Source: Norana najaformis (taxonomy: Eukaryota; Annelida; Clitellata; Crassiclitellata; Hormogastridae). From it: 64,000 nucleotides of DNA. The notes beneath the pieces were generated by a model. It saw nothing but the letters and a program-made list of their open reading frames with translations, was not told the DNA's origin and did not search any database. Shown here piece by piece: positions 1,305 to 61,370 of the stretch. The position numbers and the translations under genes were made by a program. Every line of letters begins with the position of its first letter. Positions within the stretch are counted from its first letter, which is position 1. The stretch lies in assembly GCA_964023275.1 (NCBI GenBank), contig OZ029929.1, forward strand, positions 124,001 to 188,000, read 5' to 3'.

Positions 1305-4300
1305 CTACATGAGAACAAAAGTGGCTGCCGTGGCAACGCCACAGTTGTTGTCCTTCTGCGACATGAGGACGTATCCGTCGTTTCCCCAATACGTCGACCA
1401 CGAGTTCTTGATCAGCCAATATGGCTCTCCATTCAGGACGCCATAGCCAACTGCTAGAACAGCATGGTCCAGCTGTTCCAGTTGACTCCCTGCAAATCAA
1501 CACAGATGACATACATTCAGTAAAACTTTGACGATGTTGCCTGCCTCTGTCTGTCTGTCACTTTTTGTTGCCTGCCTCTGTCTTTATGTCTCTCTCTCTC
1601 TTTCTGTTTCTCTGTCTCACTTTCTCTGTCTCTCCCGACATAGCATGCAGTTTCAAGGTCATTCACTGCACATTTATCAAGGCCTATGCAAAACAGGAAT
1701 TAATTTTCTTTAACTCAAAGTTTAAAAATGATGACAAGAAGCTCAGCAAAAAAAGCACACAGAGAGAGGATGAGAAAAAAGACGAGTAGAAGAGGAAGCA
1801 GAAAGCGGAAGCAGAAGCAGAAGCTCAAGATGATGGATGCAATTGATGAGACTGATTAGGCTGATGAGTCTGATGCCTGTGGTGGTTTACCGCAGTCGGG
1901 TTCATAGTAGACGCCGCTGGCATAGAAAGAGAGACTGCGATGCGAGGCATCGATTGCAACAGACACCGGACCGTTCTTGGCAATCGCCAGCCTCAGAGCA
2001 CCTAGGTCACCAGATGTAACGTTAACAAACGACTTCACAAAAGCCGTTGGCTTTGACTCCTTCGCATGACACAAACCGTCCTGCAAGACAATCACCCAAA
2101 ACAAACCGATATAACACCACACCTCTGGAATAAACTCACACCAGAATTATGACAATTATCTGATCCATCGTATGAACTCACCATCACCCCTTCACCCCTT
2201 GCAATCAATGTGCCAGTCTTTCACTCAAACCTAAAACATTCCTTGTCCACAAATCCTATCCTAATTCTTCCCTTGCTCCTTGTCACACTTTCCAGTTTAA
2301 TTCCTAACACCATCCACCATAGCCGTCTGACTGTCTGACTCTTGGATCCTGACCTGGAACTAAACCCTTCCTGCCAATGAGTTTTGTTTTGACTGAGACC
2401 CTGTGAAAAAGTTGGTTCCCGTGACTTTGCCTTCGTTGAGTGCAGTAGAAATCTTGAGCTTACAATTACAATAACAACAAAATTCAAAGAAAAACATAAA
2501 ACAGAAACTAAAGCATCAGACCATTTACCAGAAACTTCAACAGAGCTGATTGAATCGGATTTATAATGCATAACGTAATAAAGCCACAGACATTTATATG
2601 GCGGCTAGCAAAACCGTCTCAGAGACACTGCAGAGCGCAATAACACCATACCTTAACTTACAGGTACTTATCACAAACAAAACCAGTGGGGGGGTATATC
2701 TCACCTGTCCTAGGTATGGTCCGTAGGTCTCTTTGGAGGCCAATCCACTTTTCATGATCTCACCTGTCCTAGGTAGGGTGTGTAATCCACGCTTCATGAT
2801 CTCACCTGTCCTAGGTAGGGTGTGTAATCCACGTTTCATGATCTCACCTGTCCTAGGTAGGGTGTGTAATCCACGTTTCATGATCTCACCTGTCCTAGGT
2901 AGGGTGTGTAATCCACGTTTCATGATCTCACCTGTCCTAGGTAGGGTGTGTAATCCACGTTTCATGATCTCACCTGTCCTAGGTAGGGTGTGTAATCCAC
3001 GTTTCATGATCTCACCTGTCCTAGGTAGGGTGTGTAATCCACGTTTCATGATCTCACCTGTCCTAGGTAGGGTGTGTAATCCACGTTTTATGATCTCACC
3101 TGTCCTAGGTAGGGTGTGTAATCCACATTTCATGATCTCACCTGTCCTAGGTAGGGTGTGTAATCCACGTTTCATGATCTCACCTGTCCTAGGTAGGGTG
3201 TGTAATCCACGTTTCATGATCTCACCTGTCCTAGGTAGGGTGTGTAATCCACGTTTCATGATCTCACCTGTCCTAGGTAGGGTGTGTAATCCACGTTTCA
3301 TGATCTCACCTGTCCTAGGTAGGGTGTGTAATCCACGTTTCATGATCTCACCTGTCCTAGGTAGGGTGTGTAATCCACGTTTCATGATCTCACCTGTCCT
3401 AGGTAGGGTGTGTAATCCACGTTTCATGATCTCACCTGTCCTAGGTAGGGTGTGTAATCCACGTTTCATGATCTCACCTGTCCTAGGTAGGGTGTGTAAT
3501 CCACGTTTCATGATCTCATCTCACTGGTCCTAGGTAGGGTGTGTAATCCACGTTTCATGATCTCACCTGTCCTAGGTAGGGTGTGTAATCCACATTTCAT
3601 GATCTCACCTGTCCTAGGTAGGGTGTGTAATCCACGTTTCATGATCTCACTGGTCCTAGGTAGGGTGTGTAATCCACGTTTTATGATCTCACCTGTCCTA
3701 GGTAGGGTGTGTAATCCACGTTTCATGATCTCACTGGTCCTAGGTAGGGTGTGTAATCCACGTTTCATGATCACACCTGTCCTAGGTAGGGTGTGTAATC
3801 CACGTTTCATGATCTCACCTGTCCTAGGTAGGGTGTGTAATCCACGCTTCATGATCTCACCTGTCCTAGGTAGGGTGTGTAATCCATGTTTCATGATCTC
3901 ACCTGTCCTAGGTAGGGTGTGTAATCCACGCTTCATGATCACACCTGTCCTAGGTAGGGTGTGTAATCCACGTTTCATGATCTCATCTGTCCTAGGTAGG
4001 GTGTGTAATCCACGTTTCATGATCTCACCTGTCCTAGGTAGGGTGTGTAATCCACGTTTCATGATCTCACCTGTCCTAGGTAGGGTGTGTAATCCACGTT
4101 TCATGTTTCATGATCGTTTCATGATCCACCTGTCCTAGGTAGGGTGTGTAATCCACGTTTCATGATCTCACCTGTCCTAGGTAGGGTGTGTAATCCACGT
4201 TTCATGATCTCACCTGTCCTAGGTAGGGTGTGTAATCCATGTTTCATGATCTCACCTGTCCTAGGTAGGGTGTGTAATCCACGCTTCATGATCACACCTG

Positions 4301-7300
4301 TCCTAGGTAGGGTGTGTAATCCACGTTTCATGATCTCACCTGTCCTAGGTAGGGTGTGTAATCCACGTTTCATGATCTCACCTGTCCTAGGTAGGGTGTG
4401 TAATCCACGTTTCATGATCTCACCTGTCCTAGGTAGGGTGTGTAATCCACGTTTCATGATCACACCTGTCCTAGGTAGGGTGTGTAATCCACGTTTCATC
4501 ATCTCACCTGTCCTAGGTATGGTCCGTAGGTCTCTTCTGAGGCCAGTCCATGTTTCATGATCCACTGGTAGGCACGGAAGTCTTCGCCACCGTCACAGGC
4601 ATTGTTGCCTTCGCCCCAACTACAGTCAATCAATTCCTGCTGAGACAGCCTCACCAATTCACCCATCTACAACAGAAAATGAAATCACTCACCATCATCT
4701 GAAGCGTTTCTACGTTTGTCGAAATCATATAACAGAACTCGTAAATAAAAGAAGAAACGTTATTATGGTGAAAAAAAATAACAAGAAAAGAGAAAGAAGA
4801 AATAAAGGAAAAGTGGAGAAGAGGAGAGATGGAGCGACCCAACCCACAGCACTTGCCTTAAGGAAGTAAGCGCCTTCAACTGCACCGGTTGTTCCAAAGC
4901 TCCAGCAAGATCCACAGACTGCCTGATCCTTAACTGGAGTCACAGCCCCTACCAACACAATGCATCACAGGTTCATCAACATGCAAATACATTTACATAC
5001 TAATTGCTCTAAAGTACCAGCAAGACCACAAGAAAACCATTTTGAATTACCACAGATGATGACCACTACAATTGACCACTAAGAATGACCACTGCAAATG
5101 ACCAAGTGTTGAGAATGACCATTGTGAATGACTGCTGATGATGACCACTGCAAACAACCACTCAGAATGACCACTGTGAATGACCAAGTGTTGAGATGGA
5201 CCATTGTGAATGGCCGCTGATGATGACCACTGAAAATGACCATTGAGAATGACCATTGAAGATGACCATTGAGGTGGCAACTGACCACTTAGCCTCCAGT
5301 CGAGGTGGTCAGGGATATCATTGTTGTTGTACTGTGACTTATCAAACGGAAGTCCGCCATTGTATCCGGTGGAGCGTAACCGTCCGCGCATCATCCTCAT
5401 CTCGTCGTCCGTCCAATCGGCCAAATGATTGACAGCCAAGCTGTAGCCAAGGGACGCACGATTCTTGGAATGAATGAACCTGTTATTCACCAGAGCACAA
5501 CAAACAAAACCACCTGTTTAATAAACACAATTAATTCAACCAAAACATCCGACACTGTTTATATATCAGGCCATAAATTCAGTGATTTCTAAGAACGTCT
5601 GCATTTGAAAAACAGGCATCCGAATAAATCACTTTATTTAACTGAAAGAAGACTTATCATAATCGTAAGCTCGAAATTTCTAAAGAAAGATAAGTCGCAG
5701 TAACCAGCTTACTCACAGACGCTCAGTCAAAACAAAATCGATAGGCAGAAAGGAATCGGTTACAGGTCAAGATCCAAGAGTCAGGCAGGGAAGCTCAGAG
5801 GGCTATGGTGGGTGGTGTTTGGAACTGAACTTAAGAGGTAAATGACCAAAAGAACTAAATGACCAAAACAGGCAAATAACTGAAAGGGGTATTTGAAAGA
5901 AGTACTTGACCTAAATGTCCAAAACAGGCAAATAACTGAAAGGGGTATTTGAAAGAAGTACTTGACCTAAATGACCAAAACAGGCAAATAACTGAAAGGG
6001 GTATTTGAAAGAAGTACTTGACCAAAAGTGGTAAATAACCGAAAGAGGTAATTAAAAGAGGTAAATGACCGTAGGTTGTTGTGAAAGATGTGTTTCCTCT
6101 GAGTGTGTTCATGGTCATCCTTGTAATTCTTTTCGTGCTCTGCTTTGAAGGAGTGGAAGACTTTGTCGATGTGGCAGTTGGCGTCTGAACTGTGGATATA
6201 TTCGCGCATGGGGTTCATTGCCAAACAGTGACCCTCGTGACCCGGTCCAGGAAAGCCAGCACAGGTCAAGTCTAAACAAGAACACAAGAACAAGCCAGCA
6301 CTCAGCTGCAAGTGCCAATAAAGCTTCAGGCTTATTAACAGGCAATTTAAGAAGGAAATCAAGTCCAGAATCAATCAAGCAATCAATCAATCAGTAAATT
6401 ACAAGTGCAAGGTCTCCCTCCTCCATCAATTGCATTTAATATTAGATTGCATATCAGATGCAACAGTCCCTTTGAAAGTCGTTTGCACATTGGAAAAGAC
6501 AGATGCAATGAACCTTTCTTCCCTCCCTCCCCCTCTCTCTATCTCTGTTTCTCTGCACCTGATTCAACGAAACCATACATTTATATGGCGCCAGCTGAGC
6601 AGAGCACAGCTTACTTGATGGAGTGCGGAAGTTTTCGTCCGGCAGAGACTGACAGGCTTTGAACAGAGTGTAGTCGATGTAGTATTTGTCGTAGTGTGAG
6701 CCAAGCAGAGTGTCGTAGCCAACCATTTCATAGCGAACTGGGTCTTTGCTGTCGACAGCTTGATAGAACGTATAGACGTTCTTCTTTTGGCCGATCTTTT
6801 TGACGTCCTGCCAGACGGAACAATTCTTACCAGCCTTCATTTTATAGCCAATCATCTGCAAATTAACAAAACCATTATTATTAACCATGCCCTCATCACC
6901 ACCATCACCACCAACCCTGCCAGAACTATCTCTTACCTGGAAATCCATCAGCTCAATCTTTAATCTGTAATCCCATCAGATCCATCTCTTACAAGGAACC
7001 CTCTCAGATCTATCTCTTGCCTGGAAACTCATCAGATCCATCTCTTACCTGAAATCCCGCCAGGTCCGGTAGAAGTGCCTGAGGCACGACTACGTTGCTC
7101 TCTGTTCCATTGACGAGGAAACAGTGCTTGACATTGACAAAGTCTTCGGTTGTCATTGGAGCGATCTTGTAGCTCTGGCCAAAGTTCTTGACTCCGTCTC
7201 CTCCGATCTGATACGTCTGAACCAAATCTATCATCAGAAACCACATTAAATCTATTATTGAATACAGCTGGCAGTTAGAATGTAACCACACATCATAGTT

Positions 7301-18052: not shown

Positions 18053-32120
<14,068 letters not shown>

Positions 32121-34589: not shown

Positions 34590-55231
<20,642 letters not shown>

Positions 55232-59200: not shown

Positions 59201-61370
59201 ATCTTTTCATTGTAATTGATTCACAGATTTATATAGCGCCTGTTCAAAACACACGTATCAGAGGTGCTCCTGACCGACATCACAAGACCAAGATAAACAG
59301 AATGGCTTACACGCTTATTATTTCTGCATTTATGAAGCGCCACTATCTAATGACTAATCATCCCCTTTTGTCTGAAGGCCTCGCTCAATGTCCCTACATG
59401 GTAACCGTCTCGGGGAGGACATGAACCCTTAGCCTCCAGGCAATTCAGTTTCTGAGATTTGCACAGACTTCAGATGGCGCCGCATAAAGCAGGCTCTGCA
59501 CTGCTTAACAAAGACTGTGTGATGTGCATAGATTGTTCCAAACGGCATCTGCATTAAAAAAGGAATGAATCCAGACATCGACAGTTACTCCGCCTTCTGG
59601 GACAATCAGAAGCTGACGAGCACTGAGCTCCACTGCAAACTTCAAGACGCTGGAGTCACAGACGTCTACATCTGCGGCCTCGCATACGACGTTTGTGTTG
59701 GTAGGTCGTGCATAACAACACTCCTATCTGTCCAAAGAACATCTAGTCGTAATCCTAAACTCAAAATTTATATAGCACTACGTAAAAGCTAAGCACAGTG
59801 CACCAGCTTATTCATGAGCACTGCGTCAAGGCACTGGAGTTGTCCAAAGATGTTGTGAGAAGAACGAAGTCTAGTTGCCAGAAGATGATAGAGAGAAGGG
59901 GAGATGAGCTGTTAGGATGGGTTGCGTTTAAGCTGAGAGAACTGGGAAGGGAGTAGATTCGATGGATCAGGGTGGGATGTCTGTATGTAAATCTGATGTA
60001 ATCCAATCGCTTGGTTTAACAGGCATGAGGCTGGGGATAAGAAAACATCGCTGAGCAGGAGCTAAATGTATAGGTAATTGTAATCATAAACTTGAAATTT
60101 CTGCAGCGCCCAATGAAAGTTAAGCCATCTGAACCAGCTTATTCACAGGCACTCAGTCAAAACAAAATCAGTGTGCTAGAAGTGTTCGGTTTCAGATCAG
60201 GATCCAAGAATCAGGCAGGCAGGCAATCATACAGCTATGGTGGATGGTATTTGGAATTGGATCTGCAGGATGGATAAGGGAAAGAAGAGGAATCAGGATA
60301 GGATCTGCGCAAGAGGAGTGTTTTCAGTTTTGAGTGAAAGACCTGCACAGAGGTTGCAGAGAGTGAAGTGATGATGAGTTCATATGATGGACAAACAGTG
60401 ATTTTAATGGGAGATAGTTCCTCTTGTGCCACTTCCACAGATCATAGGTTTTGGATCTGTGCAGCATCTTGTTGTCATTTGAGATGGTGATTGTTTGCCA
60501 GGTTCGACTGCTTTACATGCCTTGGAACTCGGTTATCGAACAATCCTTATTGATGACGCCTGCCGCGGAGTCTCGCTTGCTAGCATTGATGACATGAAGA
60601 AACGTCTCCAGGACAGGGGAGCCATCATTGTGAACTCATCCGAGGTCAGTCAATCAATCAATCAGTCAGTCAATCAATCAGTCAATCAAGCAGTCAGTCA
60701 ATCAATCAATCAGTCAGTCAGTCAATCAGTTAATTAGTCAACAAATTGCTTAATCTCAATCACCTAGCCAGCTGCTTACTAGGCGGGTGTAGGTAGCACT
60801 TTTTATATTATTATTTTTATTTATTTTTTACCCGAGGTGCATATGATCCCTCAGGATTACAAAAATTAGCGGAGCATTAGTCTGGGAAGGCTGATCTTCG
60901 CTGATGGCTGTTTCAGTGGAAAAGGTGCTGCGGAAAGCGATTGCATTGTAGCGTTGGATGGCTATAAACGCTGATGGAGAAAGTAGTTTCTCTATTATCG
61001 CCCGATATCTGTGCAAGGCGATAGTCTAGGTGCTTGATGAAATTATGATTATGATGATGATTATGATGATTATTATTATTATTATTACTATTATTATTAT
61101 TATTAAGTAGCAACATCTATGGCGCCAGTGTAAAATGCACAAGGCATCAACTGATGGTGCACCAAACCCAAGCCGCAGTCAGGTCAACACCAAGAGGTGT
61201 TAAAGGTGCTATATTAAGTGTCTAGTGGTTGTTTGTTTTAACACCAGGTGGCTGATCTGGTGAGTGCCAAGGACAGGCGTCCTGAGCTCGGCCTTCAAGC
61301 GGCTATCAACTGGAGGTCAGAGACCATGGGTCAGCGAGATCAAAAGTCGAAGTGCAAACCGGTCTTTTGA
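56292..61370 (+). CDS. EF-hand nicotinamidase
   Basis: Hydrolyses nicotinamide to nicotinic acid, the first step of NAD salvage in animals that keep the deamidating route; nematode PNC-1 has related architecture. Exons: 56292-56443, 56768-56894, 57508-57564, 58039-58278, 59046-59174, 59532-59700, 60502-60644, 61248-61370. All phases agree: 379 aa. EF-hand loop 1 at 48-59 (DCDRDGFLNHAE) and loop 2 at 90-101 (DEKQDGKLDLCE) have the calcium-ligand spacing. The hydrolase domain has catalytic Asp124 in IDLQNDF, probable metal ligands Asp169, His171 and His175 in DWHPENH, His220 in WPVHCVQ, a Lys at about 245 in CIKKG, and catalytic Cys290 in GLAYDVCVGSTA. No signal peptide. Exon 2 ends with a GC donor. 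Confidence 0.95.
57050..57435 (+). repeat. Interspersed repeat, also present at 27450-27640
   Basis: Phrases 'gctaatttatgaattcacc', 'gtgaggatagctggaaaaag', 'gtagtgaattccatagacatg' and 'ggaccagcatttgaaaagg' recur in reverse complement at about 27640-27450. It might be a LINE 3' fragment, but the reading frame (EREASLNAGGSEFHRHG) did not match anything I could name. Confidence 0.55.
58828..58935. repeat. ACAG microsatellite
   Basis: About 110 bp of GACAGACAGACAGG type, in the intron upstream of nicotinamidase exon 5. Confidence 0.93.
59735..59945 (+). repeat. SINE family A copy
   Basis: Starts about 35 bp after the donor of nicotinamidase exon 6 and shows CAGCTTATTCATGAGCACTG, 'gttgtccaaagatgttgtg' and 'gagctgttaggatgggttg'. 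Confidence 0.7.
60075..60330 (+). repeat. SINE family B copy
   Basis: The fullest plus-strand copy: GTAATCATAAACTTGAAATT head, CTCAGTCAAAACAAAATCAG core, 'aagaatcaggcaggcaggc', and a GGTGGATGGTATTTGG end. Confidence 0.72.
60645..60742 (+). repeat. CAATCAGT microsatellite that includes the exon 7 donor
   Basis: The donor of nicotinamidase exon 7 (GAG|GTCAGTCAATC) is itself the first unit of a 95-bp CAAT/CAGT repeat. If the intron were retained the frame would stay open through the repeat as Gln, Ser, Ile, Asn and Val codons. Confidence 0.92.

Follow-up and report, generated by a model that had tools for sequence, protein, structure and literature searches.

Tandem repeats that straddle an exon-intron boundary are best described in amphioxus, where such "mirages" occur in the Adh3, troponin C, globin (BflGb6 and BflGb9) and PGBD5 genes and often carry AG/GT in each unit. 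Arrays with this layout are reported not to disturb splicing (PMC3087553, PMC3902484). Two human systems are also relevant: the IFI6 gene carries a minisatellite with multiple 5′ splice sites (donors) in use (PMC4526556), and in segmental duplications, boundary internal tandem repeats can alter splicing (PMC2812944). Earthworm metallothionein introns hold minisatellites as well, and the passages that describe them say nothing of donors inside the units (PMC12783039). Our search, in a literature collection without most subscription papers, did not find boundary arrays in animal groups other than amphioxus and human. Here we describe an array of this kind in the annelid Norana najaformis, in a stretch of 64,000 nucleotides (contig OZ029929.1, positions 124,001 to 188,000) that we call the window and whose coordinates are used throughout. 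The array lies in intron 7 of a gene for a 26/29-kDa-type cysteine protease. It is likely to be a minisatellite of the mirage type in which the first donor is the one most probably used and the inner donors are passengers, in a window whose arrays favor 5′ splice sites.

Anatomy and origin of the intron 7 array

The array occupies positions 2700 to 4507 on the minus strand, consists of 42-bp units, and holds 43 exon-end motifs when the exon's own copy at 4516 is counted. The heptamer CTAGGAC occurs 43 times on the gene strand, from the exon itself (4516) to a last copy at 2713, in agreement with the "about 43 serial donor copies" that an earlier reading of these letters (hereafter, the original prediction) had proposed. 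Spacing is 42 bp in 39 of 42 cases, and the remaining three intervals are 47, 59 and 59 bp. According to that prediction, every unit carries the exact exon end and donor, CTAGGACAG/GTGAG (slashes mark the exon-intron border). This is true of 34 of the 43 copies, the true donor included, but not of the other nine, which read GTGTG (four), CCA/GTGAG (three), GTGGAT (one) and ATGAG (one, with the GT lost). As nine-base donor words, the copies divide into CAGGTGAGA (34), CAGGTGTGA (4), CCAGTGAGA (3), CAGGTGGAT (1) and CAGATGAGA (1). The donor GT is thus retained in 42 of 43 copies, and the units keep an intact donor consensus as IFI6-type units do. When the 608-Mb assembly (17 contigs; repeat counts from this search are lower bounds) was searched for the exact 14-mer of exon end plus donor, 34 matches were obtained, every one inside this array, whereas the reversed 14-mer gave a single match. 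A chance origin of the repeated 14-mer is therefore excluded.

The units hold both exon-end and intron-start sequence, which is the hallmark of mirages and is shared by arrays in protease intron 2 and at two loci on other contigs (L027 and L039, below). At the distal edge, positions 2705 to 2758 (minus strand) hold the exon end in unshortened form: 49 of its 54 bases agree with exon positions 4508-4561, and GTGAG follows. The prediction that a fuller copy of the exon end sits at both edges of the array is thereby upheld, one being the exon itself. The 42-bp unit corresponds to a 59-bp piece minus 17 bases net, and this figure replaces the loss of about 20 bases suggested previously. Both the unit anatomy and this distal precursor support the proposed course of border duplication, small loss and expansion. 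The process probably started when a segment of about 59 bp, 54 bases from the end of exon 7 plus 5 from the start of intron 7, was duplicated in tandem. Judging from the anatomy, one inner copy would then have become shorter by a net 17 bases, with the resulting 42-bp form expanding through ordinary minisatellite turnover. The 42-bp unit leaves both strands open, with spurious reading frames as long as 308 codons across positions 2594-4592. Given these long frames, the array is a warning for gene annotation and prediction.

The host gene is complete, running on the minus strand from 7990 to 1305 with nine coding exons that encode a 542-residue protein. A Pfam search found the I29 propeptide domain (PF08246, from residue 241) and the papain domain (PF00112), which together with an N-terminal extension of about 200 residues and a full-length alignment with digestive cysteine proteinases place the protein in the 26/29-kDa family. 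Its closest relative (P0001, 84% identical) is encoded on a contig of 1874 bases and aligns with neither insertion nor gap at the exon 7/8 junction. This contig is probably a transcript from a relative because it is too short for such introns. The next named homologues among the matches listed come from molluscs, a leech, a nemertean and others. Exon 7 (4508 to 4666, 159 nt, ending in CCTAGGACAG) is defined by the gene model and by this uninterrupted alignment. The motif count and the gene model put the true donor GT at 4506 to 4507. The gene model also delimits intron 7 (2081 to 4507; 2427 bp, phase 0), which is the longest of the gene, and exon 8 (1891 to 2080). The invariant catalytic His and Asn both fall in exon 9 (1305 to 1489) by gene model and protein alignment. 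The array-bearing exon had previously been numbered 8; it is number 7 of the nine coding exons, although an upstream non-coding exon is possible. Separately, intron 6 (4856-4667) is of the GC-AG type, with the donor AAG/GCAAGTG.

Donor choice and alternative explanations

Reading beyond the first donor gives CTA GGA CAG GTG AGA TGA, or L G Q V R stop. As the original prediction held, TGA follows within three codons, and use of any later donor would truncate the protease before its His and Asn. It had further posed a dilemma in which the cell either picks the first donor or makes dead-end transcripts. The truncation stands, but the dilemma has less force than supposed, considering that amphioxus genes with the same layout are reported without splicing disturbance, even though IFI6 does use downstream units. 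The first donor is most likely the one used, since together with the upstream acceptor it delimits a normal 159-nt exon. The spliceosome would then choose this donor and remove the whole array along with intron 7. Rare use of a later donor would yield a stop-bearing mRNA that is degraded, and array length would be neutral. Growth of the repeat is probably harmless and not a working switch.

Variation among the units bears on this reading. The 39 full-length units contain 20 substitutions in 9 columns, and 9 of the 20 lie inside the 8-column donor core of the 42 columns (nominal p = 0.007, with shared descent ignored). Inner donors are therefore not preserved. All variable columns fall within a contiguous block (columns 8-25, 18 columns), and the other 24 are invariant (p of about 0.002 under random placement). 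Predicted RNA accessibility offers the first donor no advantage in local folds (0.46 versus 0.48 for the rest). In folds of the whole array it has a slight edge, at 0.42 to 0.47, where the mean of the other donors is 0.36 to 0.38. Compared with its shuffled versions, a 221-nt stretch has a somewhat better fold (z = -2.6).

Could the array instead be a working regulator, in which decoy donors compete and array length sets the share of truncated, degraded transcripts, and thus the protease level? The strong donor that it repeats exactly 34 times (score 11.0, among the highest of 31 donors by a consensus matrix), the same early stop after every later donor, and the precedent of IFI6, whose repeat units are described as serving as donors (PMC4526556), all speak for such a role. 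The inner donor cores, however, gather changes instead of staying conserved, local accessibility is alike for first and later donors, the amphioxus cases are reported without disturbed splicing, and few or no strong donors occur in the other intronic arrays of the window. We therefore regard a regulatory function as unlikely, and the suggestion that array length tunes expression finds no support. Rather less probable still is a platform for U1 binding that helps to define intron 7 or guards a long intron from premature polyadenylation. Intron 7 is indeed the longest of the gene, and its array carries 38 strong sense donors by matrix score. Yet 83 donor-like words lie on the opposite strand, no other intronic array of the window has more than two strong sense-strand donors, and the longest intron of the three genes annotated here (5940 bp, in ABCB8) has no serial-donor array.

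Long tandem arrays are often mis-sized, and the array might be an assembly artefact or have the wrong length; this is very improbable in view of the 9 variable columns among full-length units, the three deviating spacings, the intact exons that flank the array on both sides, and the two loci on other contigs that share the layout. The existence of the array is safe, whereas its exact copy number is not. The least credible of the alternatives is that intron 7 was itself born from tandem duplication of an AGGT-bearing exon piece. Exon-derived AG/GT units do match a published model of intron gain (PMC3087553). Nonetheless, in 16 of 18 fetched loci of the papain-like C1 family, a phase-0 intron is predicted at the counterpart of GQ/DG, as judged from junctions predicted by weak homology (about 35 to 50% identity), and in none of these 16 does an array lie within 12 bp of the equivalent donor. 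Because these loci share the intron position and have no array at its donor, intron 7 predates the array, which was added to an existing intron. A newly gained intron should be absent from relatives, and we reject intron gain by tandem duplication on this ground. Cathepsin-L-like genes form clusters in this genome at G000:C10:21.04-21.15 Mb and C12:0.54-0.60 Mb.

Arrays at donors within and beyond the window

Minisatellites of the window start at donors more often than expected by chance. We annotated 30 introns by homology (8 in the protease gene, 15 in ABCB8 and 7 in HIPK); the nicotinamidase introns, the HIPK introns past the seventh, and a two-copy HIPK case below the array score fall outside this count. 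In 8 of these 30 introns an array edge comes within 12 bp of the donor, where random placement within each intron predicts 0.95 (p of 2e-4 or less); at the same distance from the acceptor, the figures are 2 of 30 observed and 0.94 predicted (p = 0.24). The donor excess persists when 50 nt are kept free at the acceptor (8 versus 1.78 expected, p = 5e-5), when intron 7 is omitted (7 of 29 versus 0.92), and when the entire protease gene is omitted (4 of 22 versus 0.49, p = 0.0013; with the 50 nt kept free, versus 0.56, p = 0.0017). By gene, donors exceed acceptors in the protease (4/8 versus 0/8) and in HIPK (2/7 versus 0/7).

Several results weigh against donor preference. ABCB8 alone shows no contrast, with 2 of 15 donors and 2 of 15 acceptors adjoining arrays (p = 0.05 for each), and the contrast between donors and acceptors in the window therefore rests on the protease and HIPK genes. 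Self-similarity, compared at 31 donors (one HIPK donor has no annotated acceptor) and 30 acceptors, averages 11.3 of 20 matches at the donors versus 12.2 at positions taken every 7 bases (p = 0.92), an absence of excess attributable to the fifth of the window that lies inside arrays. Nor does the donor's own octamer recur significantly within its intron across the 30 introns (p = 0.11); its recurrence is strongest in protease introns 2, 4, 5 and 7. Beyond the window, in 65 introns of C1 (42) and ABC (23) paralogues, arrays are present in 20, and an array edge falls within 12 bp of the donor in only 2 (0.45 expected, p = 0.07) and of the acceptor in 1 (0.46 expected). Finally, none of the 42 C1 paralogue introns has a donor-anchored array. 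Paralogues within a cluster are not independent. Of 50 C1 paralogue introns, 8 were left out of this outside sample for a skipped short exon or a poor score, as was 1 of 24 ABC introns, in L027, whose donor scored below zero; two loci, L026 and L029, yielded no usable intron. At a threshold of 50 bp, chosen after the data were viewed and not used as proof, there are 6 outside cases versus 1.77 expected (p = 0.005). The window differs from the outside sample both per intron (8/30 versus 2/65, p = 0.001) and per array-bearing intron (8/18 versus 2/20, p = 0.03), and the generality of donor anchoring beyond the window is unproven.

Both outside donor cases belong to one ABCB gene, L027 (G000:C11:13246500-13255500). 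At L027:5085-5336, nine 28-bp units, each of 20 exon and 8 intron bases (ATATTGGAATTGTAAACCAG/GTATGTGG), span an exon end. The next intron of this gene has another array 12 bp from its donor. Across the genome, a pattern of three CAGGTRAG words with gaps of 12 to 42 bases has 654 matches, versus 349 for the pattern read backwards. This ratio is only suggestive because matches overlap and clump, with the intron 7 array itself adding many. The matches listed, which reach only into contig C4, merge within 5 kb into 36 loci by hand count. Three of these, chosen and not drawn at random, were fetched. At L039 (G000:C4:10851300-10851800), 30-bp units (G000:C4:10851792-10851949) start at the donor of an exon whose coding end, ALSGFLVIITCDGEVFYASDNVEQYLGFHQ, matches the PAS domain of the aryl hydrocarbon receptor (E = 5e-6); the short exon piece gave no match in a Pfam search. 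L037 has a putative short exon with no Pfam match, and L038 has at most 16 open codons ahead of the first donor.

Perhaps minisatellites in this lineage are born preferentially at 5′ splice sites, so that arrays accumulate exactly at exon ends, above all in array-rich regions such as this one near a contig end. We put this forward tentatively, as a doubtful but not negligible prospect. Duplication might be seeded at the donor, via slippage between donor-like words or via breaks tied to transcription or U1 binding. If true, donor seeding would leave many genes with serial decoy donors that vary in number. Roughly one-fifth of the window consists of tandem arrays, whose share in six 10-kb pieces ranges from 7 to 30%, versus 3.2% of 20 fetched loci. 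The window lies 124 kb from the contig end, and its high array density would fit a region near a putative chromosome end.

Within the protease gene, a second boundary-spanning array adjoins the donor of intron 2 (7048) at positions 6921 to 7058 (minus strand, as are all features here unless noted). Its five 28-bp units are versions of GGATTTCAG/GTAAGAGATGGATCTGATG, each holding a form of GGATTTCAG/GTAAGAG plus following sequence. Another array starts at the donor of intron 4 (CG/GTCATT; 5836 to 6070), and a third, with units resembling TGGTCATT, begins 12 bp past the donor of intron 5 (TG/GTCAGT; 5036 to 5273). In HIPK, arrays begin 3 bp past the donor at 28011 (27905 to 28008) and 5 bp past that at 26125 (25706 to 26120). 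The exon end and donor at 26896 are present in two copies 36 bp apart (26855 to 26918), perhaps a newborn case of duplication. ABCB8 has arrays 8 bp (48999 to 49171) and 10 bp (35420 to 35456) past donors. On the plus strand, an array of GTCAGTCAATCAATC identified by eye (60645 to 60740) has its start precisely at a nicotinamidase exon's donor (GAG/GTCAGTCAATC).

The ABCB8 protein is 73% identical to its best match, and the next named matches among those listed are from the annelids Paralvinella and Capitella. Among the 120 best matches listed, neither the protease nor ABCB8 had a Branchiostoma protein. A degraded duplicate of one ABCB8 exon sits in a later intron (51326-50322). The exon copies at 50435-50533 and 52327-52479 adjoin different arrays (50538-51146 and 52486-52999, respectively), of the GGTC type and the AATCAATCA type.

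Relation to known boundary repeats

The protease array is a genuine and well-formed member of a known, seldom studied kind, in what seems to be a new host lineage. One long, clear case, a second in the same gene, and two on other contigs provide material on where minisatellites are born. They also provide material for asking whether donors are truly favored over acceptors and how the spliceosome picks among dozens of near-identical donors.

The repeat unit of IFI6 is reportedly 12 bp long. Like the units described here, those of IFI6 form a minisatellite and bear donors. They are described as used in mRNA (PMC4526556), whereas the protease array is known from DNA, and its later donors would truncate the product. 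The boundary repeats of human segmental duplications involve recent paralogues, transcript evidence and new introns (PMC2812944); the protease gene, in contrast, has an old intron to which an array was added. The amphioxus mirages described in PMC3087553 and PMC3902484 are alike in that tandem units extend across an exon-intron boundary within a gene. For them, length instability and results from reverse transcription-polymerase chain reaction are described, whereas the protease array is known from one genome assembly. The protease array differs in being long (43 copies). Moreover, amphioxus mirages include 3′ boundaries, whereas in our window arrays are in excess at donors and at chance levels at acceptors.

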